From Tribonema minus (taxonomy: Eukaryota > Sar > Xanthophyceae > Tribonematales > Tribonemataceae): a DNA stretch of 64,000 bases. The stretch spans positions 496,001-560,000 of the forward strand of contig JAFCMP010000124.1 in the NCBI GenBank assembly GCA_017506865.1, read 5' to 3'. Made by a program: the position numbers and the translations under genes. Below are positions 1 to 62,300 of this stretch, piece after piece (the first letter of the stretch is position 1; every line of letters begins with the position of its first letter). Under the pieces are notes generated by a model. That model was not told the DNA's origin and made no database searches. It was given only the letters and a program-made list of their open reading frames with translations.

Positions 1-3000
1 CCAAGGACGGCAAGCTCGCCATCACAATTACGGAGAAGCTCGAGTCGTTCGTCACGGTGAGTGAAGTTGAATCTAACAGGAGCAGGTAGGGTCGGGGTTA
101 GGGACTAGGGTTAGGATTAGGATTAGGGTTTGGGTCAGCTTGCGTGCCCTATCCTGCAGTCCCTGCAATGCACACAGGGTTATCGCCTAGGCTCAAAGTT
201 AGCGTGAGGGTTAGCACAAGGCTTGGGCAAGCGCTACGGGTATGTATCGCGGTGGGTCATGAGGCCGTGAGGTTGCTGCGAAAAGGCACGCACGGCATGA
301 AGCGCACCTAACCCTTACCCTGGTTGGGAATAGGGTGGGGGTCAAAGCTAGGCCAGCACGCGTGCTTCCGCGCTCGTTAGGGTGAGGGTTAGGGCTAGCC
401 ACCGCCGTGCACCAGGCCAGCGCACGCAGCTCCTGCGGCTTTTAGTAAGGGCTGGCGCTAGGGCTAGAGTTAGGTAGGTCATGTTCTCGCGCTCGCTGCC
501 ACTGCCGCGCGCATTGCAGCCATGTTGGCTTCAACACGTGCAAACCATAACTGATCAACAACTATGAACACACACCAATCCCCGTCGCAGGTGCTGCTGC
601 TACCGATCTTCTTCGCCAAGAGCGGTCTCAAGACGGATTTTGGGGCACTCAGCAATAGACAGGACTGGTGTTTGCTTGAATATGTGTAAACCAACAACTG
701 ATCAACAACTCTGAACACACACCAACCCCTGTCGCAGGTGCTGCTGCTGCCGATCTTCTTCGCCAAGAGCGGTCTCAAGACGGACTTCGGGGCGCTCAGC
801 AATGGAAAGGACTGGGGCTACGCGGCGCTGGTGATCCTGGGGGCGTGCACGGGGAAGATCGTCGGCTGCGGCACCGCGGCCAAGCTCTCGGGTCTCGGGT
901 GAGTAGACTCAGACTGAGACTCGGACTTGTTTATCGGATGGATACTCACATCCACTGAATCGTAGTCCTAAGGGCGTTCACGGGGAAGATTGTTGGCTGC
1001 GGCACCGCGGCCAAGCTCTCGGGGCTTGGGCGAGTGGATTCAGAATGAGACTCGGACTTGTTTATCGGATCGAGACTCACAATCACTGAACCGTGATCGT
1101 CGGTTGCGGCACCGCGGCCAAGCTCTGGGGGCTCGGGTAAGTGGCGCATCAGATTGAGACTCAGACTTGTTTATTTGATCAAGACTTGCACTCATTGAAT
1201 GGCGATCCTGGGGGCGTGCTCGGCTGCGGCACGGCGGCCAAGCTCTCGGGGCTCGGGTGAGTGGACTCAGAATAAGACTCAGACTAGTTTTATCAGATCG
1301 AGACTCACATTCACTGAATCGTGATCCTGGGGGCGTGCACGGGGATTCATTGGCTGCGGCACTGCGGTCAATCTCTCGGGTCTCGTGTGAGTGGCATTGG
1401 ATCGAGACTCGCACTCGTCGGATGGAGACTCACATGCATCAGATCAAGACTCACAATCATCACATCGAGACCCACATTCACCTTGCATTAGGTTAAGACT
1501 TGCGCTCATCAGATGGAGACTTGTAAGTAAACGTCTATTTGAATCAAGACTCGCGTGCATCGGGTTGAGATTCACATTCACGTGGCATCAGATCGAGACC
1601 GACGTGCCCCCCTATGCCTGAAACAGCGCAATAATTATCTACTGGCAGTCAACAAGGTGTACGTGTTTCCTACACATTTCTGGGTTTATCTCGCTTCACA
1701 GTGCTGACCGGTGCCCCCTATTGCACGCTGTGTGCTAAGCCCTGCCAGCTTCACTTCTGAGTCTGTCTGGCTGAACAATGCTGATCCCCTCATGCCTGAA
1801 ACAGCACAATGATCACCTACTGTCAGTCAGCAAGGTGTATGTATGTGTTTCTTACACATTGCGTGCGCACTTGCTTTGCTGAGCACTGCAGCAAGAGGGA
1901 GTCACTGTGCGTGGGGGTGCTCATGAACACGCGCGGCCTCGTGGAGCTCATCATCCTGAACGCCGGCCTGGTGAGCGCTGTTGCAGTTCTTTGATTGGAA
2001 TTCACGCAGTACTTACCTTTAAAAAAAATGAATGCGTATCTGCTAGTGACTTGATACATACCTGCCACAAGTTCATACATGCATACCTACCCAGAAACAC
2101 GCGCGGCCTCGTGGAGCTCATCATCCTCAACGCCAGCCTGGTGAGCGCTGTTGCAATCTACATACATGCGTACCTGCTGATGACTGAATACTTCATATTT
2201 GCCACGACTTAGTACACGCAGGCTTGCTAAGAAACAAGCGCGGCTTCGTGAAGCTCTTTATCCTGATTGCCGGCCTGGTGAGCATTATTGCAGCTGTTAT
2301 AGATGTGTACCTACTGATGACTTGATGGCATGGCACCGACCAGCAAGGATAGGCACACGGCTGCAGCAGAGTACTAGCAGGTCAGCACATACTCACTTAC
2401 TTGTGCACTGCGCGAGTCTTTCAGTGACACTGTACGTGATCGTGCTTGCGAGCCTCTCAATCATTGCATCACTATCTCGCATCACAATGGCGTCATGTAA
2501 GTGGATGTCCATGCCATCGTGGTGTCTATGGCCTTGTGCTCCACTCTCTTGCTAACTCACTTGCTTACTCAGTGAGTCACTCTCCGACTCTCTTTCTTAC
2601 TGTCGCATCAGAGCTCCGGCTTCATCGGTGACGGCTTTGCGCCTGTGGCTCTGTGCACCACGCATCAACTCACTTACTTAATGTGCAACTCACTCAATGA
2701 GTCTCCCACTTGCCATCAGCGCCCAAAGCTTTGTGCACCACTCATTGACTCACTTGCTCATAAAAGCTCCTGACTTATTGTGCGACTCACTCAATGAGTC
2801 TCCCACTCACTATCAGCGCCCGAGACTTACTATTATGCACCACGCATTGACTCGCTCTCTTGTTGTGCGACTCGGCTTACTCGATGAGTCTCTCACACAC
2901 TATCAGACCAGGCTGCCAATGATGGCTTGTGCCCCATGCATTGACTCACTTACCTATTGTGCGAATTGACTAACTCAAAAACTCACTCACTCGCTATCAC

Positions 3001-6000
3001 GCCAGGCTGCCGACATCATCAACGACAAGGGCTTCGCCATCATGGTGCTGATGGCAGTGGTGACCACGTGCATGACTTCGCCCCTCACCGCGAAAGTCTA
3101 CCCGCCCCACCTCCGCCACTACATTGGCATGGAGAAAGAGGTGCGTGCGCTGGGTAGGTAGGTATGATGACAGGCAATGGGTATGAAGGGTATATTGATC
3201 GCCGCGAAGTCTATCCGCCCCATCTGCGCCACTACATTGGCATGGAGAAAGAGGTGCGTGCGCTGGGTAGGTAGGTGTGATGAAAAGGAGGTGCCTGCGC
3301 GTGCGTTGCCGGAAGACGAGAAGAGCGTGGGCCTGGTGTTGAAGTACTCATCATCAGCTCATACGTCGTTAAAATGGCCCCTGCAAATTGCGATGTCCGT
3401 CGATCATTCTGTGTTCTGCAGAAACGCTCTAAACTTGTTGTTTGGAATACTCACAACTGCTGTTGAAGTCCACCTCACGGCTCACAACTATTATTGAAGT
3501 ACTCATCATCAGCTTGCATGTCAACGAAATGGCCACTGCATAGCGGCTGCCGGAAGACAAAGACGGCGCGGATCTGCATGAACTGTTGTTGAAGCTCTCA
3601 TAACTGTCATTGAAGTACTCATCATCGGCTCATATGGCTCCCGCATGAATGCTCAGAACTGTTGTTGAAGTACTCACCACATCTGACCCATTGGCAAATG
3701 ACTTCTGCAGAAACGGTTGCCGGAAGACGAAGAGGGCGCGGACCTGGACGAAGTGTACCCCCCGCTCACCAAGCTGGTCATTCGCGCTCTGGCCTGCGCC
3801 AGCAAGGAGGACTTTGCGCAGCAAATCCTCAAAGAGGTGAGTGAGCGTTTGCCCTTGAGAAGAGCGTTTGGGAAGGGACATGGGTCAAGGTCAGGCTGAA
3901 TGTTCGGGTTTAATAATGATCTCCACCCCCCGCTCAATGTTCGGGTTTAATAATGATCTCCACCCCCCGCTCAACCATTTTATCATTCACGCTCTGGCCT
4001 GCGCCAGCGAGGACGACTTTGCGCAGCAAATCCTCAAAGAGGTGAGCGTCTGCCCTTGATTGTAGCTTTTGGAAGGAACAGGGATTAGGGCCAGGCTTGA
4101 TGTAGGGGTTGGATGACATTCAGTACCCCCCCCCCCCCCCCCCCCCCCCCCCTCCCCCTGCACCGTGCTTGTCATTTGCGCGCTGCTTCCGCGAGCAAGA
4201 AGAACTCTGAGCAGCAAATCCCCAGGCGGGCAAGCAGCAGGGTCAGGGTCCGGCATCTTCCGCTCGTGAATTTTCTCGCACCACTTTGATGGTGCAGTGT
4301 TGTACCCATCCCGAGCGCTGCAGGCGTGCCTCCTCGTGTGCCTGTAGGGGCGCGATGTGTGTCACTTCTACCTACCAAGGCAGCATATACTCAGAGCATA
4401 AAGCAAGTGCACGTTTCGGTGATGTTGCTCAGCCTTACCCTAACCCTAATCCTCAGACCTGACGGTGCGGTACATGCTGCGCTTCTGTCACGAGTGCCGC
4501 AGCAGGTGCGCCTGCTGGTGTGCCTGCCGGGGCGCGACGTGCGCGCGCTCGCATCACAAATCATTTACCGCTCGCTACATATTTCTGCAAGTTGTGTACC
4601 TTTTTTGGTCAGAGTGTGATTCTGCTCGCACCTTGTCGTGAGCGCTGCAGGTGGGCCTGCTGGTGTGCCTGCCGGGCCGCGGCGTACACCACTTCTACTT
4701 ACTAGAGCGGCATGTACTTCGGTACTTGAGAGAACAAATAAGTGCATGTTGTGGGTATCTGCTGAACCCGTCCTGACGGTGCAGTATTGTACTTGTCGTG
4801 ATTGCTGCAGGTGCGCCTCCTGGTGTGCCTGCCGGGCCGCGATGTGCGCGCGCTCGCGTCACTTGTAGCTACTACTACAGCCGCATATATACATACTTGA
4901 TCTTTTGATTCGTTTTTCTTATACATACTTGAAAGGACTTGTAGTACGAACAAGTGCATGGTCTGGTGAATTTGCTCGTACTCAACCTGACGTTGCATCT
5001 ACTTTGCTTGTCATGATGTCTGCAGGTGCGCCTCCTGGTGTGCCTGCCGGGCCGCGACGTGCGCGCGCTCGCGTCCAGCATGACCGCCGTGCACCTGCTG
5101 CGCCGCCCCGGCGCCGGCCTGCACGCGGTGCGCGTCGTGGAGCTCGGCGAGACGTTCAGCGCAGACATGGCCGCCGTCAACGCGCACCGCATGCTTGAGG
5201 TAAAACACTGGGCCAACTTGGTTTCAGTGTCGTGCACCAGAAGTTGAAGTTGACAAATGGGTTGAAGTTTGAAAGCTGCCTGCGTGTTGTGCGTGTCGTG
5301 GAGCCCGGCGAGACGTTCAGCGCGGACATGGCCGCCGTCAACGCGCACCGCATGCTTGAGGTGAAAGACTAGATAAACTATTCATATCGTAAGGTGATAA
5401 CCATCAATGAAGGAGCAGAGTTCAGCCATGATTTTGACAGGTTTCGAATTTTTGTACGCGTCTGACAGAAGTTGAAGTTACAGAAGTTGAAGTTGGGCGT
5501 GTGCGCGCGTGTTGTGTGCATTTATGGCTCCCGGCGACACGTTCTGCGCCAACATGGCCGCCGTCAACGCGCACCGCATGCTTGAGGTGCGCCCTCGCTG
5601 TTCCCTTGTGTTGCCGCGCATTTTGTGTACCACAAGTTGTTAACGGTGGGTTGAGATTTGCAAAGTTGAAGTTTTAGATGTTGAAGTTGCTAGCCTGCAC
5701 GCGGTGCGCGTCATGGAGCTCAGCGAGACGTTCCGCGCCGACACGGCCGCCGTTAACACGCACCGCATGCTCGAGGTGCGCCCTCATTGTTCCCTTTGTT
5801 GTGTACAACAAGGTGAAGTTGCTTGAGTTGAAAATCAAGAGAGAGAGAGAGTGAGAGAGAGAGTTTGCCCCCACTTTTTCTTGGCGCCCGCTTGGTGAGT
5901 AACACAAGTCGAAATTTAAGAAGTTGAAGTCGGACAGCCGCAGCTTGTGCGCAGTGCGTATTGCCACGGACCTTATTCTCCGTTGTTATTGCCGTGCTTT

Positions 6001-8749
6001 AAAATGGTTTCACTGTACCGTGCTCCTGTTGTGGCTAGAGGCCTCTGTCGTTCCACGCCGTGCACGCATGAAGCGCTCAGAGAAGTTCAAGTTCAAGACG
6101 AAACTAGTGACTCACCCCCCCCCGACATTATCGCGAAACCACAAGTTGAAGCTGCCGAAGCGCGACAAAGAAAATTGAAGTTAGACGCTGAGTGTCTTTG
6201 CACCGCACCTGACGGTGCAAAGCAAGTTGAAGTTGGGCCCGTGCGACTCAGCGCCTGACACGCTGCGTGTCGCTGCGTGCGTTCGAACAAGAGGACTCGA
6301 TGATGGCGGCGTTCTTGAAGAAATAGTAGTTCAAGTCAAAATGAGTGACTCACCGCCCGACACGTCGCGATGTCACGTGAGAAGTTGATGACACTGAAGC
6401 GCGTCAGATCAATTGAAGTCCAACATGTGTGACTCAGCGCCTGACACATTGCGTCGCCGCGTGCATTTGAACAGGAGGACTCGATGATGGCGGCGTTCAC
6501 CAGTTACTGCGGGGGACAGGGGGAGGCCCGCGTCTCGCCGCACATGGTGATTGGCCAGCCGCACGACCTGCACACCGACACGCTGTCGCTGGCGCAGAGG
6601 TACTTACTCGGACGTAGGGGAGGACCCCGAGATGCCATTTGGCGGCGGCGGCGTTTGAGTGGTTGTCGTTGCGACACTTTCAGACTGTCATACGACATGT
6701 AGATTCCTTACAGCTAGATGCCAATCATCTGGGCTTTTTCGCGCCCTGAGCGAGAATAAATAAAAAGTACTTACTCGTAATGTTGTACTTTTTGATAAAA
6801 TTCTCGCTCAGGGCGCGAAGAAGCCCAGATGAATGGCATTCAACTTGAAGCTTGCTGTACGGAATCTACATGTCGTGTGACAGTCTGAAAGTGTCTCAAC
6901 GACACCCACTCAAACGCCGTCGCCGTAATATTGTACTTCCACTTGAAATGTACTCCTATGCTTCTATTTTAAGGGCACGCCTGACGACTTTTGTGTGACA
7001 TACACTCTAGACCAAGTCAAGCCCCACGATAGTACAGCTTCATTACATTCATCATCATGAAACCAGCACATGGTGCTCGGCCAGCCGCATGACCTGCACA
7101 CCGACACGCTGTCGCTGGCACAGAGGTACCCACTTCCTATCACTGTAGTTCAAAAAGCATGAAGGCCTACCTGACGACTGTTGTGTGACATGAAAACATG
7201 TGACCGTTGTGGGACATGGAAATCAGGCCCCATGGTTCGAACACTTCAATGCATCCATCATCATGAAAGGAGCACATGGTGCTCGGTCAGCCGCATGACC
7301 TGCACACCGACACGCTGTCGCTGGCAAAGATGTAGTCTACAGATTTGTGCTGGATAATTTAAGCGTTTCACACTGCTTGTTGTGGCACTTCAACCAATTC
7401 ATTCCCGTGAAACCATGGCGCCGTGCGTGGCCAGCTGCGTCAACGTGGCCTCACGGCTTCAGGCATGAGGCCTTGAGCCTTTGGCGAGCATTATTCCTTT
7501 CTAAAGAAAACAACTGCTGATAGTTATGCCCCCCCCCCCTCCCCCTCCTTTCCAGGCTGCATGTGAACACGCTCCTGGTGGGACTGGACCCGGCGCTGCA
7601 CATGACGTGGCCAAGGACGGACGAGTGAGTAGTTGGAGTTCTTCATGCATGTTGAAGTTTTTGAATGGGCAGGAGCGAGTAGTTCAAGTTATATTGCATG
7701 TGATGAAGTTTGTTATATGGGCACGTGCTGCACATGACTTGGCCGCGGACAGACGAGTGAGTAGTTGAAGTTCTATATGCATGTTGAAGTTTATGAACTG
7801 CAGGAGTGTGTCAGTGAGGATATATTGCATGTTGAGGTTTGAAATATGGGCAGGCAGGCCATGGTCTGGCTGCGGACAGACGAGTGAGTTGTTGATGTTA
7901 CACATGCATGTTGAAGTTTATGATCTCGGCAGGAGTGATTCATTGAGATTATATTGCATGTTAATGTTTAGTCTGGGCAGGGCGCTGCACATGCTCTTGG
8001 CCATGTAGGGACGAATGAGTAATTGAGGTTATATATGCATGTTGAAGTTTATCATCTGTGCAGGAGCGAGATCTGTGCAGGGGTTGTGTCACATGTTGAA
8101 GTCTGTAATCTGGCCAGGCGCTGCACATGGTCTTGTCAGCCGACAAACGAGTGAGCGCCACAGCTACTTGAGAGTAGTTTGCAGAAACACGTGAAGTATC
8201 ATGAACATATTAAGGTTCGAGATGCGGGCCGCGGCTTCCCTCCCCCTCAACTTCAGCTGCCTCTCTCTGATGTTTGGCCACCTCTTGAGAGAGCAGCTGG
8301 TGATAGTGTAGTTTGGCAGACACTGCAATTTTGAAGTGTGGAAGAGGCAGGCGTTGCTGAACGCACAGCTGCTTCAGCGTGTGCTGCGTGTTCTTGAACC
8401 CCCCTCCCCCACCAATTCCACCATGTCTTGCACACCGCAGCGACAGTGATGCTTGACTTCAGCGCTGACTTTTGCAAACACAGGCTGTTGGCTCATGTTT
8501 TCGACGTCGCTGCTGCCAAGTAGAGCTGCAATCAAATTGCGAGGCACTTCGGCGGATGGAATAGGGAACGGGCACTTTGCTCTGAGTACTAGTTATGTAT
8601 GTGTTGCAGCATGTGCTGAGTGGCAACTTAAATTTAAAGTGAAGCAGCAACTTCAAGTACAACTTCAACATTGCTCGCCCCTGTCTGCGCTTGATGCCCT
8701 CGTACTGGCCCCAAGAATCGTCAGCAAGAACGTTTTGGCCCCATCGCCA

Positions 8750-8783
<34 letters not shown>

Positions 8784-11700: not shown

Positions 11701-14700
11701 TCGATTTGGGCGCAGGTTGTAGTCTACGCTATGGAGAAGTACGCAGACTCTATTCGCGCTCCATTTTTCAGCTGCCTGACCTCTGCGCTGTGAGGTGCAA
11801 GTCCATAAAGACAAACCTTTGATAGGTTGGCTGAAGCTAGCTGTTTTGTACTGTTCACATTGTGCTTGCCGCAGAAAGTGAACTCGTGTTCAAGGCGTCA
11901 TTACCCCCACAAGTGATCAGCTTAGACACCAGACAGCTTATCTGTCAAACCTTATTATTGGCGGTTGCCTTGCACTCGAAGGAGCAGGATGCTTCAAGCA
12001 GCGGCATGCACGGCAGTGGTATTTTTTGCGCTTGAAGTGTGCCCTGCGCAGCACTCTGAAAGTGCAACGTGGACTTAAGAATGTCAGGATGTTAGCTCAG
12101 ACGTTTTGCTATGCTTCGAGTTGGCGTATTGTAAACAATGATCTCTAATGGCCAACCATCACAGCTCATGTGCTCGCGTGAAGCGAGCTCAAAGCATGTG
12201 CCCCCATGTGTGTGCTCTCAGTATTGGAACAGCGTTGTTCTCGCGTTAGCGGTACCAGCTATACCTATCTTAAGTATTGCGCCAACATGCAGCTCTCAGC
12301 GGCAGTACAAACGAGTCCTTCAGTGTGCTGTTGATCTGCCTTGCAGCAGAGGGGGAGCGCTCATATCTCGGCTGGCTACTTGCTTCTTGCTTACATGTTT
12401 CCTGCGATGTTTCGCTCATATTTTTTGCTCTTGGTCTGTCGACGGTTTTGATTGGTGTGCTCGCTGCAGCGGCGGCCAATGGGAAGGGCCCGGCAGCTAC
12501 CATGGGCAACCCAGGGCGACCTGCCCACCCGGGGTCCAACCGATCGCTGCCGTGGTTTGGCAGCGCAGCACGCGGCCACGGTGCGTGATTTAGTTATTTA
12601 CGAGTGTGTAGGTATCACTGTGTATTAGTACGTGTATGTTTGTATATTGGCGCACCCGGGGCTGAAGTGATTGCTGCCGTGGCTTTGCAGTGCGTACATG
12701 TGGGCTTCAAGTGCGCTGTTACAAGTGGAGTTCACTTACGCGATGTCATGCCAACTTCAAGTGTCCTGTTGTCAATGTGCGCAGAGCCGGGCCAGCTGCT
12801 GGCGGGCTTCGGCCAGTACACATGGAGTACACTTGCACCTGCACGTGTCACACTAACTTCAAATTTGCGCTTGTTGATGTGCACAGCCGGGCCAGCTGGT
12901 ACACACATACACTAACTGCATCTTTGTGGTTGTTGATGCGTCTCAATCACTCCAACTTCAAGTATGCTGTGCGCTGTTGCTGATGTAGAATCACGTCAGA
13001 CAGTACTTGCATGCGACACATCATTACTGGTTATTTAAAGCATGCAATTGTGCCCCACTTGTTGATGTTGAGTCAGAGATAGCGCGTACACCTGTGGCAA
13101 GCGTACAGGTACGCGTTTTTTTTCTTTATTTAAACAGTTACCTGTGGCCATGGAATAACTCGTATGCGTAACCTGTCGTGTGAGGCAACGAGTACAACCT
13201 GCACTGGTCCACAGCTGATAACGCGCGGTACGAGTGAAAAAAAATTCTTGCGCTACGCGCGACCTGTTCGACAATGGCACTACGCGCCATCTCTGTGTTG
13301 AGTGCAACAACAGGCCAGTACACGTGGAGTACACTTGTCGTGCTAACCTCAAGTGTGCCAATACACGTGAAGTACACACTTTCATGATGTCATGCTAACT
13401 CCAAGAGTATCGTTGTTGGTGAGCGCAGAGCCAGGCCAGCTGCTGGCGGGCCTCGGCCAGTACGTATGGAGTATACTTGCACTTGCACGTGTCACACTAA
13501 CTTCAAATTTGCGGTTGTTGACTGCACAGCCGGGCCAGCTGGTACACACATACACTAACTTCAACTTTGTGGTTGTTGATGCGTCAGAGCCGGGCCAGCT
13601 GCTGGCGGGCCTCGGCCAGTACACGTGGAGTACACTTGAGCACATGCTAACTTCAAGTTAACTTGAAGTGCGCTTTTCACGCTTTTGATGAGTGCAGAGA
13701 CTGGCCAGCTGCTGCATGATACATTGTGTGTGCTAACTTCAAATTTGCTGTTCACACTGGTGATGTGTGCAGAGCCGGGTCAGCTGCTGGCGGGCCTCGG
13801 GCAGTACACGTGGCACGGGCGCCGCTCACAGACGGGCCGCCGCAACAGCGATGGCAGTGACGTGCGCATGGTGGACGCCGTGCGCGCTGCGCTGCAGGAG
13901 CAGGTGACTTGAACTTGACTTGATGACTTGAGGAGTTGGCTCGATGAGTCTCTGCGCGTTGGCGGGAGACGATTATCAGCATGCGGTTATGCAGAATGTT
14001 GATTGTGAGGGTGCCTGCATGCAACAGCGACGGCAGCGATGTGCGCATGGTGGTGACGCTGTGCGCGCCGCGCTGCAGGAGCAGGTGACTGGGAATTTGA
14101 CTTGACTTGATGACTTGAGGAGTTGGCTCGATGAGTCTTTGCTTGTTGGGGGAAGTCGATTCCCAGCATGCGGTTATGTGGATGTTGACGATGAGCGTGC
14201 CTGCATGCAAAAGCGCGGCAGCAACATGCGCGTGGTCGAACATCGCGCGTCTAGCGCTGCAGGAGCAGCTGACGAACATGACTTGACTTGATGACTCGGT
14301 GACGAGTCTGTGCTCTGCTCGCTGAGGGACGTCGATTTGCTGCGTTTGATTTGTGCTAGTCAACGTTGAGCGCTCGTGCATGCGAGAGCGACGGCAGCGA
14401 CGTGCGCATGGTGGATGTCGTGCGTGCTGCTGCAGGGGCATGTGACTTGGAACCTATCTCGACTCGAACACTTGACTTGGTGACTTGAGCTAGCGTAGTG
14501 AGTGTTGGATGAGAGTCGTTGTGGACATTGTGCAGGTGACTTGAGCCTGACTTGATTTGGTGACTTCGCTCGACTTGATTTGGGCTTGATGAGTCTCGAG
14601 TGAGAGTCATCGTGCCTGCACAAACAGGTGACTTGACTTAACTCGGTTATCTTGATGAGTCCTGTCAGTGAGTCACCTGGGCAGCGCGTTCTCCCTGTGT

Positions 14701-16988: not shown

Positions 16989-17861
16989 GTCATGAGTCAC
17001 AAGTCATGGCCTACGTGAGGGGTGCTCAGCCGCATCATCAGAGTTGCGAGTCGTGGGTCACGAGTCATGAGTCATGGCGGACCCGAGGGAGGGGTGTGCT
17101 CCTCATCCGCCCCCCCCCCCCCCCCCCCCCCGCCCCCCCCTTCGTTCCTCTCCCGCATCGTCTGAGCCATGAATACTGAGTCATGAGTCACGCGCACCCC
17201 GTCTCGGGGGGTGCACGTGTTTCGGGCCTGTTGCTAGGGGACGTTCGGTACAAGCGTGGGAGAGAGAAGTTCAACAAGTTGCCTGGGCCGCAGCGTGCGC
17301 GTCTCGGATTTGCTGAGCACTGACTACTCGTGGGTTTTGCGCTGAGAGAAGGGCGCAGCGCGACATTGATTTGTGCGCCGTGCGTCCCGTCGTAGCAGCG
17401 GGGGCCAGTGCCTGGGGTATCGCGTAGTGCAAGCTATGCAACTGCAAGTTGAACTTGACAGCCAATCCTGCAGCGCTCGCTGCAAACAACCACTCAACCC
17501 TTGTGTGTGTTCCCCGGGGGAACCATTCCTCTTCTTACACTGTGATGTTCGTAGCACGTGCATGGGCAAAGCAGATGGGGGGCTCGATGTTTCGGGGCAG
17601 AAAACAAATGCTGCAATGCGGCCGCGGGTTTGGGGCACGGGGGCGGGGGGTGGGAACGGGGGTCTGCAACGGCGCAGGCATTCATGCACGCGCGAACCAA
17701 GTACGATAGAGCGATTGAGCTATTTTTACAGCCGTGCATGCAGAGATGGGTTAGCTGACGCTGTCCCTGCCTCATGCGCGGTGCCCCCTGTGAGCGCTGT
17801 CACGACCCCCTTTTTCTGGCGGGACATGCTGCCCGCTGGGGAGAGTCGCGGCGGCACGGAA

Positions 17862-26812: not shown

Positions 26813-26843
<31 letters not shown>

Positions 26844-44000: not shown

Positions 44001-47000
44001 GTCACGAATGGAACCCTAATCCTAATACTTCTACTAAGACCGCAGCACATTCATCGGGTGGCCGAACACAGTAAAGAAGGCACGAGAAACGCTCGGTGAC
44101 TGTCGCTCTGACCCGAGCCCTATGTTTATAGATACTTCGAAGTATATCCATTTCGCAGCAAGTGTGTAGTACCATTGTCAGCTTTCGTTTAAAGTGCAAA
44201 ACCCTGGTGATCAACTCAAGCTTGCTACAAAGATACCCACCCCCCTTGCTGATTTTGTATCCCTAACCCCATTTGTGATCACCCTCAATCGCCTATGTGC
44301 TGCGGAAACTTAGTGTCGCTAACCCCATTTGTGATCACGCTCAATTTATGTGCTGCTGAAACTTAGTGTCGCTAAACCCATTTGTGATCATGCTCAATGG
44401 CCCATGTGCTGCTGAAACTTATGTCCGCAGCTCTTAGTGTCGCTAAACCCATTTGTGATTATGCTCAATGGCCCATGTGCTGCTGAAACTTATGTCGGCA
44501 GCTCTGCTCGCCAAACCCATTCATGTCTGATGCAAGCTGCACTCTCCCTCTCTCTTGTGCAGGTGGAACTGATAGTGCAGGACCGCCTGGGCGAGGTGGA
44601 CGCGTTTGAACGTGACGCCGTGGGAATCGTGTCGCGAAAGGTACACTTGAAGTTATCGTGTCACGAAAGGTACACTTGAAGTTGAGCCTGCTTTGTGGAT
44701 ACAGCAAACGCAAGTACGTTACTTGCTGCGGTAGCAAGCTTCAAGTTGGATGCCATTCATCTAGGCTTTTTCGCGCCCATACATGCGACCGTTGTTTGCA
44801 CCGTTGGGATGTGAATTGGACAAGAAAAAAAAGCGGTTGGGCGTAAATGACATGACCCTGAGACGATTGTGTCAGCGCAGATTTGGTTGTGGCAAACGTA
44901 TCATGTCAGTGCGGTTCACACACGCTCATTCAGCAAATCGCGCCCTCACCCTTACACCAGAGACGCGATGCGCAGCATGGGTTGCGACATGTCGCATTGA
45001 GAAAGGGGAGGTGGAAGGGCAGTGCAGGCAGGGGTTAGCGCAACCGTTGTCCTACGTGACTTCAAGTGATTGTTTTGATCAGGGCGTTACCGCTGGCGAG
45101 GGCCAACTCGCCGCCCAGATGGCACGTCACTGTCCACTTCTTCATAAACTTGGAAGTATGTCACGTTGGGTACAGTCAAGCGTTTGCGCAGCATAGGTGT
45201 AGGGGCGGTGGTGGACAAACTTCAAGTCCGCCTGCAGGCCCGTTTGGGGCTGACCTTGCTGAGCGTAGGTAGGCATATATGATATCTCGCTCACAGATGC
45301 GCAGTGAGTGCACACGCTGCACAAGCACGAGAGCTGCACACATTGCGTATTTTCAAAAGGTCTCCGGCCCACGAGCGGAAGCGAATAAAGCACTGCAGCA
45401 TAGCGTAGCATGTTTTCGGGCAAGTGCATAGAGAGGGGTCTGCATTGTGTTCATGCAGGTTGTGACCGCTTTTGTACCGCGCTGCCTCAGTTTCAGGCAT
45501 GTGTATGGGGACAGGAGTGACTTTGCAGTTTATACTTTTGCTTGAAGCGCGAAAGAGCCCACTCTTGTGGTTCGGAAGTATACTTCTTCTCGATTGGAAC
45601 TATGCGTATGAGTGTCTCGTCGCAACGCATGTGGGTACATTCTGAGTACATCAAGAGTACATTGCAGGGGACACCACGGGTCAGCCCCAGGTGTAGTCCA
45701 CCCACCCCTCCACCATTTGATGTGGAACATGTTAGGATACTTTAGACTTGGAAAAATTGGTTGCTCAATGCACGTAACCTGCATGGCGAAAGCATGAACA
45801 CGTTTTGCCCTACTGGTTGTGTTGTTCTGTCGTTATCATTTGCAGGTTGCCGTTATCAGCGGAGACATCCGTCGAGCGATGCAGCTGTGCCGCCGCTCCT
45901 TGGAGGTATGTATGCAGTATCATGGGTATGCATGCACCTCAAGGTGTAAAAGCAAAGTTCGGCAATTTTGGCACAATGTGGAGCCATTAGTTGCCGCCAT
46001 GTGTGCCCTGTGAGGATGGTGTTTCCCCCACTGCACCTGTCATGCCATTGTGTCTTGAACTCTTCTGCGCAAGGTCTGCCCATACGGCGTTGCATGATCG
46101 CTATGGCTTGTCCGGCACTATCCTGTGCTTAGGTTTAGGGTTAGGGTTAGGGTTAGCGTCAGGCATTGCATTTTGTCGCCTAGCCCGTAGGCTAGGTTTA
46201 CAGTTCTGTGCACATCAGTGTGGCTGCAGCCTGGTACTGAGTACAACTGGCACGCCATGGGTGCTCTGCTGCAGCGTGTGCATGTACGTGCTTTGTGCAT
46301 GGGCAAAGTTGAAGTGTCGACATGAATGATATGGTGAAGGTAATACAAGTTGACGGGCCACGCACGATGCTGTGTTGCACCCGCACCTTTTATAACCATC
46401 TACTACTTCAAGGATCTCTGTTTAATGCATGGCTGCAGGAGCCCGCATTTTTCTTATTGCACTCCACAGTGCTTGCTTGAGGTTATGTGTCGTACAGTCA
46501 CAAGCCACGATTGACGCTGTTGCCGCAGCTCTGCTTGGAGCGTGTGGACCGAGAGCGTCAACTGCAAGTCGCTGGAGATTCTGGCAAGGAGCCGAACTGC
46601 AAGGTACAAACAGTTCAAGTACTGGAGACTGCAGTGCACGCCGTGCGTGTTATGTTGCAGCCCTGACTTTTTTATGGAGCAAAGGCCGCTTGCACAATGT
46701 GCAAAGGGCTCTATGCATGATGTTGCGATGTGCAAAGGCTGCATGCACCTTGTTGTAAAGGCCGCATGCACGATACTGCACAGGCCGCATGCATGGTGTT
46801 GCGCTCGCAGGGCTGCTCTGTGTACACTGCTCAGCTCGGCCAATCAGCGGTCGACGACGTACATCGTTATTGAACTTCAACTTCAACTCTGCGCGATGGT
46901 ATGGGTATCTGCGCATTCTCTCATCAATCACTGCTCAACGATGCTTGTCGCAACCCGCACCGGCACACGCAACGGCGCTCCACTCCCTCGTGACCACAAT

Positions 47001-49839
47001 GCTGCTGGGCACGAGCGCACTGAACTTCAATTTGCTTTATGGGCTGCAAACGCCGTGTTTGAAGCGGCGTATCCGCTGCCAGTACCGCTATGTGATGCAA
47101 CAAGGGGACACCGCAGCGCTGCTCTACCTCCTTTAGGTCACCAATGTAGAGGTGGAAGCCTCTGCCCGCATCTGCTTGCTGCGCCGTACCGGTATCGATG
47201 CCTCCTCGCCTGCCTCCTCTGTACCACTTCACATCGGTGTCCTCTACAGTCAAGAACCATATTGGAATCGTTTGTATTCGTGCTGTTTTCCGCAAAGTTT
47301 TTTCTGGCATAAACAGTGCTGCGGCCCTGCGCAACGCTGCTTTGCGACTCCCACTGACAAGAACACGCCCGCCTGCGGAGACTTGCTCCCTGCCCCTTCA
47401 CATCGGTGCCCTCCTCGTGTGTGCCCCTTCAGGTGACCATTCGCGATGTGCAGCTCGCGAGCCGCGAGGACAACGACGGCCCCCTCACGAAGATGCTTGT
47501 GCATGGCACCCCCCTGGAGCGCATGCTGATGGTGGCCGTCGCCAAGGCCAAGCACCTGGCGCTTGACAAGGAGTTGGTGTCATTTGAGGACGTCATGTGA
47601 GTTGCCGATGCATACATGTTGTATGCAAACCACTCATTTTGTATACCCCCCCCCCCCCCCCAATCTCCCCCCCATCCCCTTGCCGTGCATGCTCGTGCAC
47701 GCCCCCCCCCTGGAGTGAATTATTCTAGTGGCCATTGCCAAAGCCAAGCACCTGGCGCCCGGCAAGGAGGTGGTGCCATTTGAGGACGTGACGTGAATTG
47801 CCGATGCATACATGGGAGTGTTCCTTTAGTATACCAAGCCGTCGATCACAGGGCAACCCCCTCCACACGCACAATCTCTCCCCATCCCCTTGTCGTGCAT
47901 GCTCGTGCACGGCACCCCCCTGGAGCGAATTATACTAGTGGCCGTTGCCAAACCCAAGCGCCTGGCGCCCGACAAGGAGACGGTGCCATTTGAGGGCGTG
48001 ATGTGAGATGCCAATGCATACATGGGGGATATTCCTTTTGTATACGTGATCTGCGGTGCAACTTCAAATGCAGCATCACATGGTCGCTGACACAGGGCCG
48101 CATGCCAGCAGCCTCCTGCGACTCATCACGAACCTGTACCAAGTATGGATCTGCACCGCTGCCAGCGCTATATGCACCATCTCTGCAGCTTGTCTGAATC
48201 ACATAACCCTCACGTTCTACAACCAGTCTTGCCGGGCACAGCAGCCTGCCTTCGTCTGACCACCGGCACTGCTGCTGGTGCCCCTCGCAGGAGCCGGCTG
48301 AGGTTGATTGCCAATCAAGTTCAAGGCACGTCACTGCCGCCGGGCGAGCTGAAGGAGGCGTATCTAGTGCCATCACGGCAGATCGTGCTGGACACCGTCT
48401 ACAGACTGGCCCACTGTGACATGCTGCGCCTGCGGAAGCTGGACTGGCACGTAAGCAGCGCTCAGCATTGTGGACACCAGAAACTTGTTATTTGGTGAAC
48501 TACATAACTGCTGTCACAGCAAGCCATGTTTGACACTCTGTGTAGGAGATGGACTGGCACATAGTGAGCGCTCAGCATTGTGGACACCAAGAACTTGTTA
48601 ACTGGTGAACTAACTGCCGTCACAGCAAGCCATGTTTGGCGCCGGCTGTGGGAGCCGAACTTGCATGTAAGCAGTGCTGAACATTGTGGAGACCAGAAGT
48701 TTATTGTTTCAACTTCAAAGCAAATAGCTGCCGTCACAGCAAACCGCACTTGACACCGTCTGTGAGTCAGCGCACTGCTGTATTATGCGCCTGTGGAGCG
48801 GCACATGAGCAGCGCTCAGCGCTCTGCACGCCGCAAGTATTGTTGTTAGCCTTGATCAGCTGAACTGCGTCCATCCATGAGCCACTGTGCCATGCTGCGT
48901 GTGCGAGAGCTGGACTGGCACATGAGCAACTGCGCGCTGCCGTGTGCGAAAATGGACTGTGAGCCTTAAGGGCCTGGATGGTCCTGGTTGTCAGCTGCTG
49001 CTGCTGCTGCTGCTCGCGAATGTCACCAACATGCTAACTCTTCTAAATTCACCATGTTGAAACCATCAGCTGTAGTGCTATGCAAACCTGTTGGAGCCCG
49101 TGGGAAGCCCATCACTTGCCGGATTGCACACTTCATATAGCACTCAATCTCCAAGCAGAGTCGCAGATGTAACTGCGCTCCCCCCATTACAATCAGCACC
49201 ACCTTATCACGAATAATCCTTGACGAAGGTGCCGATGTTAAGCGATACAGAGGCACGACTTCAGTCATCTTCTGCGGTCCATGCAAAGCCTTCAGCCACT
49301 GGTTATCCGTTGAGTCTATCGATATCTTGCCATGGTGCCATGTTTGCATCATGCATCGTGGTTGCACAGCATGTGGCATGTGCAGTTGCCGAGCCACGTG
49401 ACATGAGCGCAAACGCAACGTGCAGCGCCTGTGCCAGCTGTCAGCAGCGCTCACCTGCAGTGTGCACACCGAGTGCACCTGACAGCTGGGGTGGGCGGCC
49501 GTGCACTTCAAGTTGCACTTCTGCCACTGTCCTTCCAATTATGGTACTAGCAACCCACCGCACCCGCTGTGCCAGCTGTTTGTGCGTGCTCAGCACCTCT
49601 AGCCAAGCAATGCAGACCCAACACAGCACCACTTGTGATAATGCCGAGTATACTGTGCCTCAACACTCACCCTGGGAATCGGGACTCATGAGTCGTCCTG
49701 CCATTCATTGTTGTCTTCTGTAACGCAGCGCACGCCGCACATGGTCCCGAAAATGGAGCTAGTCAACATTGCCGTGGCGCTGCGGCGGGACCCCATGGCT
49801 CGGCAGCACCTTCCCGAGGACTTGACAAAGGGCCTCTAG
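29048..49839 (+). CDS. ORC1: Origin recognition complex subunit 1 (17 exons)
   Basis: Largest subunit of the nuclear complex that binds replication origins and, with CDC6, loads the MCM helicase. Exons: 29048-29150, 29612-29700, 31162-31322, 33597-33744, 34954-35217, 36126-36311, 37402-37440, 39193-39386, 40179-40250, 40753-40898, 42602-42725, 44563-44640, 45846-45905, 46529-46603, 47433-47596, 48291-48450, 49729-49839. Basic Lys/Arg N-terminus, then BAH domain (exons 3-5; YSVGDAVLLRTEKWGYGQF, EAQWLYTWHDVP), the LPCRE motif that starts the ATPase (exon 6), Walker A GVPGTGKTATV (exon 8), Walker B VLLLDEVDSL (exon 10), sensor 1 IIAIANTLNLTDR (exon 11), SGDIRRAMQLCRRSLE (exon 13) and winged helix (exons 15-17). 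Introns 2 and 9 are GC-AG (GCAAGT). Phases agree everywhere except exon 8, which is 194 bp with a one-base frame change in a G/C-run stretch (39284-39345), possibly an assembly error. Exon 14 is the least conserved. About 724 residues. Confidence 0.95.
29716..29738 (+). mobile_element. Minimal 5'-truncated SINE (about 23 bp) with target-site duplication
   Basis: Only the SINE 3' end (GCGCCCTGAGCGAGAATTAA) is present. It sits between two copies of AAGTACAAGTCAC (29703-29715, 29739-29751). The duplicated target starts at base 3 of ORC1 intron 2, so the insertion again lies on a 5' splice site. Confidence 0.75.
30760..31970 (+). repeat. Copies of both ends of ORC1 exon 3 (BAH)
   Basis: Upstream copies of acceptor plus exon start (ELKPWW/P-SSAAGDDYFNR) near 30765, 30888 and 31029. 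Downstream copies of the exon end (GQFTEAPACITYIW) with TG/GTGAG donor near 31381-31452, 31590-31630, 31762-31800 and 31921-31962. The closest copies are almost identical to the exon. Confidence 0.85.
32570..33420 (+). repeat. Upstream copies of ORC1 exon 4 start with acceptor
   Basis: At least six copies of GCGCGCAG plus the exon start (RQADGEMMIEAQ) near 32580, 32813, 32911, 33128, 33253 and 33366, before the true exon at 33597. Each unit also contains TACCTACCTACC, TGAGCGCTGC and a GTACAC segment at about 120-bp spacing. Confidence 0.85.
33843..34345 (+). repeat. Downstream copies of ORC1 exon 4 end with donor
   Basis: 33847-33927 repeats the exon end (HGRQNREPHEVFETDH) with a GTGGGC donor at over 90% identity. 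34316-34340 is a short degraded copy (ADHGDE) with GTGAGC. Confidence 0.75.
34380..34890 (+). repeat. Upstream copies of ORC1 exon 5 start
   Basis: Six copies of (CAG)ATGAGCGCGGAGTGCAT near 34386, 34470, 34555, 34629, 34725 and 34813, before the true exon at 34954. The last is the longest, reaching FLRWK. ACCTCAACTTCAACTG-type sequence lies between units. Confidence 0.85.
35300..35690 (+). repeat. Downstream copies of ORC1 exon 5 end, with telomere-like spacers
   Basis: The exon end IVHKTFRDV..PAQRLQ with GTGCGC or GTGACT recurs, ending near 35358, 35518 and 35681. CCCTAA tracts lie at 35457-35484 and 35603-35623, between the copies. Confidence 0.85.
36355..36565 (+). repeat. Downstream copies of ORC1 exon 6 end with donor
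   Basis: 36370-36432 is nearly identical to the exon end (LMRRLQLSSAPAKLPCREME), including the GTGCGTGCACGTCACC donor context. 36492-36560 is a diverged copy. Confidence 0.85.
38182..38206. repeat. Pure poly(C) tract, 25 bp
   Basis: Uninterrupted C run in ORC1 intron 7. Confidence 0.95.
38740..39090 (+). repeat. Upstream copies of ORC1 Walker A exon start
   Basis: 38766-38802 copies the acceptor and GGPNVLF. 39024-39085 copies GGPNVLFISGVPGSGKTAT, a Walker A variant with Ser, with TAG in place of CAG at the acceptor. The true exon starts at 39193. Flanks share an AATGATGATGA(C/G)AAATCAAAATTATTCTG segment. Confidence 0.8.
39395..39453. repeat. Telomere-like CCCTAA tract
   Basis: Seven to eight CCCTAA units, interrupted by GTAGGGTTAA, begin within 10 bp of the ORC1 exon 8 donor. 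Confidence 0.9.
40919..41705 (+). repeat. Nine-copy array of ORC1 exon 10 end and donor
   Basis: The sequence GTGCTGCA...CTGTTCAACTGGCCGCCTCAGAG/GTAC recurs near 41050, 41123, 41200, 41272, 41344, 41389, 41464, 41520 and 41683, with a partial copy at 40934. Many units are about 72 bp, a multiple of three, so a frame stays open for about 166 codons. The true donor is at 40898/40899. Confidence 0.9.
40966..41043. repeat. Unclassified dispersed repeat, copy 3 (inverted)
   Basis: Lies inside the first unit of the exon 10 array, so it splits a duplicated copy. It matches 14936-15012 in reverse (GGTTATTGGTGGAAGGCAC...CACCTAGAGC...TTTTGAATCGTTTCC). Confidence 0.6.
42125..42548 (+). repeat. Upstream copies of ORC1 exon 11 start with acceptor
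   Basis: Four copies of CTGCAG plus CGGCGG(G/C)CG...CTGGTGATCATCGCCATCGCCAACACG near 42138, 42241, 42349 and 42497, before the true exon at 42602. Units share CTGAATCTGACTCTG-type sequence. Confidence 0.85.
43764..43925 (-). mobile_element. 5'-truncated 3'-end fragment of the LINE family
   Basis: About 100 bp from TATGGACTTA onward match the 3' end of the LINE at 51052 (shared GGACTT.TAT, AGGCC.CAAGGGAGG.CGGGT, CAGCCTAGTCTG). The reverse translation retains a SQLLGRGAD tail like the LINE's SKLLGHSAD. The last part is duplicated in tandem. It begins directly after GTAC (43760-43763), as does the large copy. Confidence 0.7.
44732..44788 (+). mobile_element. SINE fragment
   Basis: GTAGCAAGCTTCAAGTTGGA, then ATGCCATTCATCTAGGCTTTTTCGCGCCC, matching the subfamily of the copy at 6789. 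It lacks the 3' tail and a visible target duplication. Confidence 0.55.
46128..46157. repeat. Telomere-like TTAGGG tract
   Basis: Four to five TTAGGG-like units in ORC1 intron 13. Confidence 0.85.
47685..48010 (+). repeat. Two downstream copies of ORC1 exon 15 end with donor
   Basis: Copies of the exon 15 end (LVHGTPLER and VAVAKAKHLAL through FEDVM), ending near 47795 and 48003. Each is followed by GTGA and the same TTGCCGATGCATACATG intron sequence. They differ from the exon by scattered changes. Confidence 0.85.
48535..48925 (+). repeat. Downstream copies of ORC1 exon 16 end
   Basis: Four degraded copies of TGGACTGGCAC plus GTAAGCAGCGCTCAGCATTGTGGA-type donor context near 48550, 48650, 48790 and 48905. 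Spacing is about 110 bp. Confidence 0.75.
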
Positions 49840-50916: not shown

Positions 50917-50930
50917 CTCCTGCAGTGTAC

Positions 50931-51037: not shown

Positions 51038-51051
51038 CTCCTGCAGTGTAC

Positions 51052-58691: not shown

Positions 58692-58699
58692 TCCCTATC

Positions 58700-59363: not shown

Positions 59364-62300
59364 ATGGCAGTACACTCTGTGCTCTCGCTGCTGCTCGTGG
59401 CCACAGCATGCGTGTCAGCGTTCGTGGTGCCGTCAGGTACGTCTCATACAGGCAGCTACATCTTGATTGCATGTTATCATGATGTGTGCATGCTGGTGGT
59501 GCGCTCATCAGGTTTGCCACTACTATTCTCATCATCGTCTGCATCGCTTGATGTGTGCTATGCTGTCAGGGGGGCTGGCACGTGTGTCAGGTGCGTGAGA
59601 TGATGTAGTTGTCGCTGGACATGGTTCCTTCTTTGCTTGCTTTCATGCAAACTTTCAAGAGCCTCAGTAAGTAAACAAACGCTGGTGCGCTGGGCGACGA
59701 GCTGTGATGCCAGCTCCACTGGTGCTGCTGCCACTGCTGTGCATGCGCTTACTACCCTGGCAACGTCCTTTGTGCGAGCTGCCGTGCACCGGCATTGAGT
59801 TGTTTAGGCTTACAAATCACCGCTGGCTGTAAGTCAGCAACCTGAAGCTCCCCTGTCCTTTAAGATGGTTGCGCAGTGTGGTTGCTAGTTGCTGCGAAGC
59901 ATCGGCTGCCAAGTTGCTCACGTCACTGACCGGATAGGCTTATTGGCGCTTTGGCTCGAATGACCAACTGCACGATGCTGGCTTCTAGGAGCATAATTTG
60001 ATCCGCTTACCACTCTTCCCAGCAATTATTTTGTCCGTTGACCAAGGACTTGACTACAATGCAGTTTGCGATACTCCTGAACCCCCAGCAACACACCCAG
60101 CCTCTATGAGAACAACAGGTCACCGATGCTGCAGGTCAAGTCAGAGCATTACATTGTGTTTCGTTCAGTGCGTGAAGCGATTGCTTATGCTGGTCGAGAA
60201 CGGGTGCACATTGACAAGGAACCCATAACACACGGTCAAGGCTTGCTGCAGCGGCTGCCGTCAACGCATTGCCCTGCCCCTTTTGCAAGGCCTTCCTGCA
60301 TAGCATTGCCGGTTTTCCCGCGTCCATCGGTATCAAATCACGATTGCTCGCCTGTGGGGCGACCCTCATCAGTTCTGCATTCCGCGCTTTGGCCCTCAAT
60401 TCTGGTCATGATCATGGTGTGGACGTCTCTGTCACGATCGTGATGATGCTGAAGGTCGCGGAGATGCCATTCACGCTGCTAGACGGCACCGCCGCCAGCG
60501 CGCATCCACCGCAACACGCATGATCACGCATCGGGCACTCCCTCCGCAAAATGAGCACCACAGCGCCTCAGCCTCGCACCGTATCCATCTTCATGGTCGT
60601 GCTCACGAACACCCTTCCCTTCATGTGCACGGCGGCAGCAGCGCGCAGCCAAGCGCCTTCTATGCTGCTGGGCGGCGTCGCCGCCGCCGCGGCCGCCTCC
60701 ATCATCAGCACGGCGCCGGCGTCGACGGACTACCTGCGCACCCTGCACAATCAGCCGGTGAACTCGTGGACGATGCTCAGCAAGACGGAGACGCGCGAGG
60801 GGTTTTACGGGGAGTACTCGGTGGACGTGAAGGAGCAGGAGGTGGACAATGCGGACTCGACGTTCAAGTCGAAGGAGGCCACGGAGAAGGGCAAGGTGCG
60901 CATTGCGTTTGATCATTTGTGCTGATTACGTGTAGAGTACACCGTCTGTGACGTGGCACACTCTGCCTCCAGGCGTGCATGTGTGGTGTCCATATGTAAA
61001 GGAGCAGGAGGTGGACAATGCGGACTCGATGTTCAAGTCGAAGGAGGCCAAGGTGCGCGTTGCGGTTGATCATTTGCGTTGGATTAGGTTACATGCAGGC
61101 TACACCGTCTGTAACGTGTTGCGGTTGCGTTTTGTGTTGATTACGTCACATGTAGACTACGCCGTCTGTAACATTTTCTAGGTTGAACATTCGTGTTGGA
61201 TCACATTACATGTGGACTACACCATCTGTCACATGACGCGCTCCACACTATGGGTGTGTGTAACCATGGTGGTATACGATGCAAGGACTGATGTGGATTG
61301 CAACTTCAAGTTCAAGGATGCCAATGCAGATGTGGTGACAAGGCACCTTGCGTGCTTTAGCGCATGAGGGGAATAGGTATGCGTCGAAGGTTGATGTAAA
61401 CAGCTGAGCTCAGACAGCCTCCCCGATCAGTGACGCATGCATCGTAGCGTTTTTTCCATGCTTTCCTGAAGACCTGCTCCACAGCTGGCATCGTCGTGAA
61501 ACGCAGCACAAATGCTCACAGTCAGTATTTTACCGAGGTGCAGGATGTATGTATGCTTGAACGAAAGTCAATGAAAGGGGACTGCAGGATCCTGCACAAT
61601 GCATGTATTGGCATGTTCGCGTAATCAAGGCAACACACTGCTCAACACTTTATGAGTAGCACTGCGCATAGCGGAAGGCAGACAGCAGATAGTGGACTTC
61701 AACTTCAACTTAGCAGATCAGCTCGCTCGGGCACATGGAAGCACGCATCTGCAACGGTTTCAATGATACAGGAGTGCCTTCAAGCACGTAGTGTTATGTC
61801 AGCTCGAGAGGCATGTGATAGCTGTTGCATGCTGACAGAGGCTTGACACGTGTAGTACAAAGGGAATGCCCACGTTGTGGTGTTTAGGGGCTGGAGTGAG
61901 TATGTGGCAGCGCTCTAGTCTAGACAGAATGCTCTGGGGTATGCATGGTAAAGCACCATATACATACCTTGCAGGCCGTGCCTGCTACCACCGCAGGCCC
62001 TGATCAGCATCATGCATGCGTACACTTCACAAGTACTACAGAAGACCATGACTGTGTGCGGAAGCGAGAGTGTTATGGCAGGGGGGGTTATGGTGTAAGT
62101 TTGAGGGAAGGATGAGATAAAAAAAATTTAACAAGACAAGCAAAAAAGTCAATAAGAAACAAGCAGGTGTCAGCATCCTGGAGATAATAGGGGAGCACTG
62201 CGGCAGTTGCAGTGGCAGTTACACAGCGAGGCTTTAGTTGTGGTGGCAATGTACCTGCAGCGAAAAGTCTTGAATGTCCCACTGGAATTTGATGAGCAGG

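Follow-up and report, generated by a model that had tools for sequence, protein, structure and literature searches.

Arrays of partial exon-end copies across splice junctions enlarge introns in a 64-kb stretch of the Tribonema minus genome

Intron lengthening is usually ascribed to transposons and random indels. Minisatellites consist of head-to-tail units, and slippage drives their expansion and divergence. The arrays described here share the head-to-tail units of minisatellites, but they are centred on splice junctions and nearly absent from the junction-free DNA of the window, i.e., the whole stretch of 64,000 nucleotides that was analyzed. The closest described event concerns a potato RdRp gene in which a tandem duplication across the boundary of intron and exon led to intron gain (PMC4974935). 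As in the window, that duplication crosses the acceptor and the exon start, and the copy is partly intronic; however, it is a single event, and the intron it created is new and uses a cryptic donor within the exon, whereas here dozens of duplications lie on both sides of exons and existing introns are enlarged. In the intron gain of the Rogers type (PMC4974935, PMC2891723), an exon segment bearing AGGT is duplicated in tandem and, as here, splicing renders the duplication neutral. The unit of that type is exonic, and by our deduction the new intron begins with sequence of the downstream exon, whereas the units found here carry existing intron and their copies are placed within introns that already exist. 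Introners likewise shape introns recurrently and are most frequent in aquatic lineages; they form dispersed families (PMC9860276), while the present repeats are local to their junction and without inverted termini. A literature search that had most subscription journals outside its reach returned no description of junction-centred duplications across a genome, and such absence is not proof. The earlier note on this DNA knew of no named mechanism with this signature; the elementary event is known from the potato gene, and its density and centring in this window are new.

Gene models were made by us and comprise 23 exons in the one 64-kb window, with some exons missing from the models. The true exons join into known proteins in the case of ORC1 and of a Na+/H+ antiporter. 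ORC1 was identified by homology in family and structure searches of the joined exons (PDB match, E 1.2e-26, together with BAH and AAA), and the antiporter by its Na_H_Exchanger match (2.3e-15) and a gapless 107-residue alignment. Homology also supports the true splice sites, as N1-N2-N3 aligned without gaps over those 107 residues to an uninterrupted homologue, and O6-O7 matched an ORC1 chain from PDB, the alignment being interrupted by one residue. The antiporter exons had one homologue, used for exon joining, on an IMG/VR contig that is presumably bacterial; neither the ORC1 exons nor a reverse-transcriptase-like open reading frame (51130-56406) had a match in viral_contigs, and the family search gave no match for H1+G1 and P. 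Read-through scans against Pfam, which covered 1-20 and 33-43 kb of the plus strand and 18-28 and 42-52 kb of the minus strand, returned Na_H_Exchanger and ankyrin, with AAA families below the cut-offs; a viral accessory family that also fell below the cut-off (E.024) was regarded as a chance match. No tRNA was found in the window, and Rfam gave no match at the gathering score. Junction copies occur in the antiporter gene, ORC1, a gene at 44.5-49 kb and a minus-strand ankyrin gene (Table 1). Telomere-like insertions were confined to the same gene territory as the junction arrays.

Table 1. Exon-end copies and arrays in the window, by gene
Gene	Feature	Positions	Strand	Basis
Antiporter	N1 (738-898), start + acceptor duplicated upstream; 146-bp unit, 523-668 / 669-815, 89% alike	523..898	+	self-matches
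Antiporter	N1 end + donor, four copies downstream; copy junctions 1029, 1136, 1256, 1386 = GC, GT, GT, GT	899..1438	+	
Antiporter	N2 (1892-1970), two downstream copies of end + GTGAGC (2140, 2277)	1892..2293	+	
Antiporter	N3 (3006-3140), decayed acceptor-side array upstream; best match AG + 6 exon bases	2654..3283	+	
Antiporter	N3, single 93% copy of end + donor downstream	3199-3283	+	
Antiporter	N4 (about 3711-3836), start copies upstream, end copies downstream	3480..4224	+	
Antiporter	N5 (5026-5199), 4 AG + exon-start copies upstream, 3 exon-end + GT copies downstream	4287..5801	+	
Antiporter	N6 (6475-6599), 1 start copy upstream, 2 end + GT copies downstream (7125, 7331)	6241..7334	+	
Antiporter	N6b end (about 7622) + GTGAGT array, units about 130 bp	7584..8155	+	
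Antiporter	N9 (13773-13903), acceptor-side copies upstream, 3 donor-side copies downstream	12707..14484	+	
Antiporter	N10 end (16069) + donor array; N11 (16792-16988) start copy at 16633	15659..17185	+	
Antiporter	Weak copy across N11 stop codon, 80%	16958-17008 vs 17135-17185	+	self-matches
ORC1	O1 (31212-31322, BAH), 3-4 downstream end copies, three with GTGAG	31212..31973	+	
ORC1	O2 (33597-33744), 7-8 exon-start copies upstream, most with AG; 1 end + donor copy downstream	32541..33989	+	
ORC1	O3 (34954-35217), acceptor array upstream, 3 donor copies downstream	34364..35682	+	
ORC1	O4 end (36311) + GTGCGT, 2 copies downstream	36246..36572	+	
ORC1	O5 (39193-39386, Walker A), 2 AG + exon-start copies upstream	38764..39386	+	
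ORC1	O6 (about 40798-40898, Walker B), 9 downstream copies of exon end + donor, 8 with GT	40798..41701	+	
ORC1	O7 (about 42602-42725), 4 AG + exon-start copies upstream	42135..42725	+	
Ankyrin	84-bp tandem copy, 92%, across probable exon end + GTGAGT donor	25853..26029	-	
44.5-49 kb	H1 end + GTACACTTGAAGTT, 29-bp tandem across donor	44564..44683	+	
44.5-49 kb	G1 (47433-47596), 2 downstream copies of end + GTGA	47433..48045	+	
	Small exon end copied downstream; edge = GTGCGC donor (60895) or stop codon at about 60925	60827..61235	+	

The whole window holds 172 forward self-matches, 136 of them with a start-to-start offset below 1 kb. When 160-bp anchors centred on junctions were searched for a local direct copy (at least 30 bp within 2 kb; the match need not cross the junction), 32/39 had one, while none of 300 random anchors did in five stretches without annotated junctions (27.0-30.0, 48.95-60.4 and 61.3-64 kb), which confirms that the junction-spanning exon-end copies are real. 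In a sixth stretch, 5/60 random anchors had a copy. The anchors with no copy in this test were N8a, N8d, O4a, O5d, G1a, O7d and H1d; the 29-bp tandem at H1d is too short for the test, and a telomere-like repeat begins 10 bp past the O5 donor. Under a stricter rule, in which the match had to reach 8 bp on each side, 21/34 antiporter and ORC1 junctions have a copy. Local repeats cover.41 of the non-exon DNA of the antiporter gene and.43 of that of ORC1, and 0.00 of 17.1 kb without annotated junctions, 6.6 kb of which are two open reading frames.

A hand-entered list holds 69 copies at 25 junctions, with one to nine copies per exon end, laid out as exon end plus GT downstream or AG plus exon start upstream. 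Exon copies run exactly to the exon edge in 51/67 cases, one of which crosses the N11 stop codon rather than a splice junction, and lie within 5 bp of the edge in 60/67; among the other seven, two are low-complexity poly-Gly matches (O3, O4), one covers O6 bases 62-85 and misses the edge by 16 bp, three miss it by 6-13 bp and one carries a deletion. The claim that a copy always contains the splice site is therefore true of the large majority and too strong as a rule. The edge copied at 60.8-61.2 kb may likewise be a stop codon rather than a donor, and the N11 copy, perhaps together with this case, shows that copying does not strictly require a splice site. Other coding edges, all approximate (two are open-frame ends and one ATG position is a guess), have copies in 1/7 cases (Fisher p.001), or in 2/8 (p.004) if the 60.8-kb edge is a stop codon. 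Overall, 45 local repeat families were found, 28 of which touch an annotated exon. Among the 17 that do not, seven belong to the unannotated ankyrin gene, and the family at 17.8-18.1 kb falls outside annotated genes. Those at 1609-1860, 9403-9634, 11278-11550, 16342-16770 and 44254-44497 look intron-only, as does a further repeat at 3895-3974. The earlier note is silent on such intron-only repeats.

The units measure 29-215 bp, with a median of about 146 (140-146), sizes being hand-entered, one per junction where readable. Most of the nearest copies are head-to-tail direct repeats, and offset and match length show that several units abut (N1a 146/147, O3a 144/140, O1d 129/118, O2d 177/144), with a few copies (N6, outer N5) further off. 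Moreover, the units are centred near the splice junction: the exon share of the 21 nearest units has a mean of.43, an SD of.13 and a maximum of.61, and uniform breakpoints gave so low a maximum in 2.5e-4 of draws and so small an SD in 5e-5. With 25 units the mean was.41, the SD.13 and the maximum.61 (1e-4 and 5e-5 of uniform draws); small exon shares are under-detected in both sets. The spacing of copies ignores the reading frame (20/28/21).

Differences between copy and exon amount to 7.5, 7.3 and 15.7% at codon positions 1, 2 and 3, a 1:1:2.1 pattern that fits neutral copies next to a constrained exon. GT is kept in 36/40 copies and AG in 24/28; in these counts three acceptor copies of O1 are misregistered, as is probably one donor copy of N10, and the rows were picked as junction-spanning matches, with a bias towards kept dinucleotides. 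Such retention, together with the exact stop of most exon copies at the edge, could speak for selection, the copies then regulating splicing either as decoy sites or as alternative ends of exons. Nevertheless, neutrality predicts a retention of.857, which the counts match (p.65, and.25 after removal of the three misregistered O1 rows), the codon pattern is neutral and the spacing is blind to frame, so that selection, including the selection for alternative junctions proposed earlier, was rejected and appears very unlikely. The copies look neutral and their GT and AG survive as neutrality predicts; therefore, they are decoys and not spare exons. Functional exon duplication was rejected, as the copies are partial.

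Neutral copies are also expected under the main rival, a uniform tandem duplication followed by a sieve: duplications inside exons would be purged, those that are intronic or cross one junction would survive with the original splice site kept, and, if introns were ancestrally short, most survivors would span a junction. This would account for the near-absence of exon-interior copies, neutrality, spacing in non-multiples of three and the stop-codon copy. Simulations starting from 80-bp introns with slow decay gave copies at.61-.67 of junctions (observed 21/34) and.88-1.0 of families touching exons (observed 24/31), but the same runs gave an intron coverage of.94-.98 against the observed.41-.43, and.30-.32 of young pairs touching exons against 25/38. 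At coverages of.31-.70, uniform settings reached only.16-.34 of junctions and.29-.45 of families. Across settings, the mean fraction of young local pairs touching a true exon was.23-.36 under uniform duplication, with single runs scattering widely (between 0 and.75 where pairs were fewest), and.51-.81 when junctions were favoured; matching the observed pairs needs roughly a 10-20-fold junction excess over intron interiors. These values come from three series of 6, 20 and 16 runs per setting, the last two without the low-complexity filter used on the real data. Survivorship further expects duplications in junction-free DNA, where the window has almost none, and the centring of units lies outside its prediction. 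We thus hold survivorship by itself to be unlikely, and uniform background duplication explains poorly the recurrent junction-spanning duplications which, as first noted, enlarge introns and leave decoy sites.

Instead, we moderately favour that introns grow by local, DNA-level head-to-tail tandem duplication focused on splice junctions, followed by slippage within the array. A donor-side duplication would leave the first donor usable, and an acceptor-side one the last acceptor; therefore, the protein would stay intact and the extra copy would turn into intron. Once two copies are present, the exon segment that they share could slip or undergo unequal exchange, by which further copies are gained or lost. 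The nearest copy is the most alike in 30/43 comparisons, O2 and O6 clearly deviating, which reduces an earlier rule to a tendency. Because 18 of 105 polarity triples favour sister copies, with 47 undecided, copies also arise inside arrays. Moreover, simple tandem duplication accounts for some but not all copies, since the intron parts of several arrays, N5 and N6 among them, diverge beyond the neutral twofold.

An origin of the copies by RNA-templated insertion, from splicing intermediates or reverse-transcribed pre-mRNA, would agree with their confinement to spliced genes, apart from the exceptions given above, and with the reverse-transcriptase-like frame at 51130-56406. However, the units cross unspliced junctions on donor and acceptor sides and lie head-to-tail beside their source, as local DNA duplication gives, and nine exon-exon joins searched in the window had no copy beyond chance extensions of 7-10 bp, which makes the reinsertion of splicing intermediates suggested earlier highly improbable. 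Introner-like elements or other transposons carrying the repeats deserve similarly little credence. Intron ends are more alike than chance allows, 22 and 23 of 136 pairs exceeding the 95% null where about 7 are expected (17 introns of the window only), and motif TTGAAGTT occurs 43 times in introns against 1.2 expected; in our reading the excess similarity is probably splice consensus plus this short motif, and the arrays are local to each junction, without inverted terminal repeats, with 1/17 introns at or over the 95% null. Finally, arrays with as many as nine copies are a challenge for assembly, but an assembly artefact is extremely improbable, given exon parts 75-100% like their source, individual differences and indels, and occurrence at many junctions of genes on both strands.

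For the junction-focused duplication that we favour, the initiating lesion is a guess: DNA may break, or be nicked on both strands at staggered positions, at the junction or close to it, and fill-in would then yield the duplication; damage linked to transcription or splicing, or the edge of a nucleosome, may be the source. Tentatively, the DNA of this organism could be especially prone to breaks or nicks at splice junctions, in which case repair of splicing-linked damage, rather than background mutation, would build introns outward from exon edges, the telomere-like insertions being a second repair scar. If junction-centred duplication is true, it would provide a direct and datable mechanism of intron growth and would fill genes with decoys that the splicing machinery has to pass over. 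It would also suggest that local damage to DNA is tied to splicing or transcription. The arrays would then act as a clock, so that strains could show the process in action.

In the window, eukaryotic DNA of about 55% GC, two genes were securely identified, a Na+/H+ antiporter and ORC1. Exon edges were read from the sequence, and the codon score used was trained on the window itself. The counts reported here are based on 23 exons, some with approximate starts and all outside the ankyrin gene; further exons are absent from this set, probably between the antiporter exons N7 and N9. Over antiporter exons N1-N2-N3, 107 residues aligned with zero gaps to a homologue that an IMG/VR contig encodes without interruption, so the splice sites chosen there are correct and the copies of exon ends are non-coding. 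Similarly, ORC1 exon O6 continues into O7 in the alignment with a PDB ORC1 chain with a gap of one residue, leaving no space for the nine extra donor and four extra acceptor copies between them. In ORC1 exon O5 (39193-39386), the frame shifts within a G-rich stretch near 39300-39340, which reflects either a very small intron or an error in the sequence. A protein family search for the 44.5-49 kb gene returned no family. The open reading frame of 1758 codons carries what we take to be reverse-transcriptase-like motifs, and no relatives of it were found in viral_contigs.

Genes, open reading frames and telomere-like tracts in the window
Feature	Position	Strand	Basis or remark
Na+/H+ antiporter	0.7-17 kb	plus	Na_H_Exchanger 2.3e-15 on joined exons
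Ankyrin gene	20-27 kb	minus	ankyrin matches
ORC1	31-43 kb	plus	BAH, AAA; PDB ORC1 E 1.2e-26
Gene without family match	44.5-49 kb	plus	exon models
Open reading frame, 1758 codons	51130-56406	minus	no local repeats inside
Open reading frame, 426 codons	57478-58758	minus	without local repeats
Small exon	60.6-60.9 kb	plus	sequence reading
Telomere-like tracts	102-139, 374-401, 4428, 20283-23778 (seven), 32182		
Telomere-like tracts	35450, 35597, 39396-39459 (two), 43973, 46124		

Donor-side copies lie downstream of the exon and contain the exon end, GT and the intron start; acceptor-side copies lie upstream and contain the intron end, AG and the exon start. The exact exon edge is reached by 51 of 67 exon copies, and 60 come within 5 bp of it. 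The copies entered by hand (69 at 25 junctions) have a median spacing of 140 bp (quartiles 113 and 177), which ignores multiples of three (20, 28, 21; n=69). When 160-bp anchors were searched for a copy within 2 kb (E up to 1e-5), one was found for 32/39 junction anchors, for 0/300 random anchors in five stretches without annotated junctions, and for 5/60 at 17.2-19.6 kb. Random anchors deep inside the introns of the antiporter and ORC1, where the copies themselves sit, had one in 66/150 and 52/150 cases. The repeated share of non-exon DNA is.41 in the antiporter,.43 in ORC1,.20 in the 44.5-49 kb gene and.28 across the ankyrin region. The stretch at 30.0-31.2 kb, directly upstream of ORC1 exon O1, reaches.48, that at 42.7-44.6 kb.13 and that at 17.2-19.6 kb.11. 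Seven other stretches, 17.1 kb in total with 6.6 kb of open reading frames, have a repeated share of 0.00. An annotated exon is touched by 28 of 45 repeat families. The remaining 17 include seven in the ankyrin gene and several confined to introns. One exception to the junction rule is an intron-only tandem array (44254-44505, units of 53-71 bp) directly upstream of H1, an exon of the 44.5-49 kb gene.

Survivorship might produce such a pattern with no junction bias, if duplications within exons alter the protein and vanish while those crossing one junction are spared. Simulations of uniform tandem duplication with this sieve, neutral decay and identical detection were set against the counts from the antiporter and ORC1, where 21/34 junctions have copies, and 25/38 young local repeat pairs and 24/31 families touch an exon. 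Uniform runs that began with introns of 80 or 300 bp and let copies decay slowly did reach the observed figures for junctions (.59-.67) and families (.78-1.0), but with a coverage of.89-.98, as compared to.41 and.43 observed, while settings with coverage of.31-.70 gave only.16-.34 of junctions and.29-.45 of families. Moreover, young pairs touching an exon averaged.23-.36 across ten uniform settings (single runs 0 to.75), against the 25/38 observed. Down-weighting intron-only duplications to approximately.05-.1 brought the simulation close to all four observed figures. The junction excess would thus be 10-20-fold as an order of magnitude, the exact fold depending on simulation assumptions.

Separately from the simulations, the 21 nearest repeat units prove to be centred on the junction: their exon share has a mean of.43 and a maximum of.61. 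With uniform breakpoints, a maximum so low occurred in 2.5e-4 and a spread so small in 5e-5 of draws (1e-4 and 5e-5 with four units added). Units with a low exon share are harder to detect; this bias reduces the spread but does not account for the absence of high shares. Among non-splice coding edges, 1/7 has copies (the stop codon of N11, the last antiporter exon; Fisher p.001), or 2/8 (Fisher p.004) when the 60.8-kb case, too, is counted as a stop codon. The N11 copy (16958-17008 versus 17135-17185, 80% alike) lies beside poly-C.

The copies look neutral in their evolution. Exon-versus-copy differences at codon positions 1, 2 and 3 are 83/1104, 81/1112 and 174/1107, the 1:1:2 pattern expected of neutral copies beside an exon changing mostly at third positions. 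The earlier note had described GT or AG as usually kept, and this holds in the junction-spanning matches, a choice that itself favours kept dinucleotides (GT in 36/40 donor copies; AG in 24/28 acceptor copies, or 24/25 without three misregistered O1 rows). Such retention is at the neutral prediction of 85.7% (per-site divergence 7.4%), and therefore calls for no function. In the arrays at antiporter exons N5 and N6, copies are almost identical in their exon part but differ in their intron part, the gap exceeding the twofold neutral difference; intron flanks may have been swapped there via unequal exchange within the common exon segment.

The exon-nearer copy is more similar to the exon in 30/43 comparisons. 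Of 105 copy triples, 40 match step-by-step renewal at the exon, 18 duplication among copies and 47 are undecided, and probably both processes occur. Altogether, the duplication is local, head-to-tail and at the DNA level, as well as junction-biased, centred and neutral. It could start from a lesion at the splice junction, repaired via fill-in or template switching, with slippage following the junction duplication. Inspection by eye of the flanks of 13 units revealed no evident common breakpoint motif. The 17 interstitial telomere-like (TTAGGG)n tracts (zero in three shuffles, both strands) are a hint, rather than proof, of lesion repair at junctions: all lie within or adjoin spliced-gene territory and none in the repeat-free 17.1 kb (.005 for random placement, in a test picked after the tracts had been seen), and one begins 10 bp past the O5 donor. 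For mammals, one report proposes such tracts as scars of double-strand-break repair (PMC2246262). In addition, the short motif TTGAAGTT / AACTTCAA occurs 43 times in introns versus 1.2 expected, with a density of 1.48 per kb as compared to.54 between genes; it is found in introns throughout (e.g., 5244-5681, 7652-8042, 16086-16314), part, not all, within arrays.

The closest published case we found is in potato, where a single duplication runs across an intron-exon boundary of the RdRp gene (PMC4974935), and our literature search found no account of a pervasive, junction-centred pattern. The elementary event therefore has precedent, while its pervasive junction-centred form appears to be new, and a damage process directed at splice junctions is a possibility in Tribonema minus.
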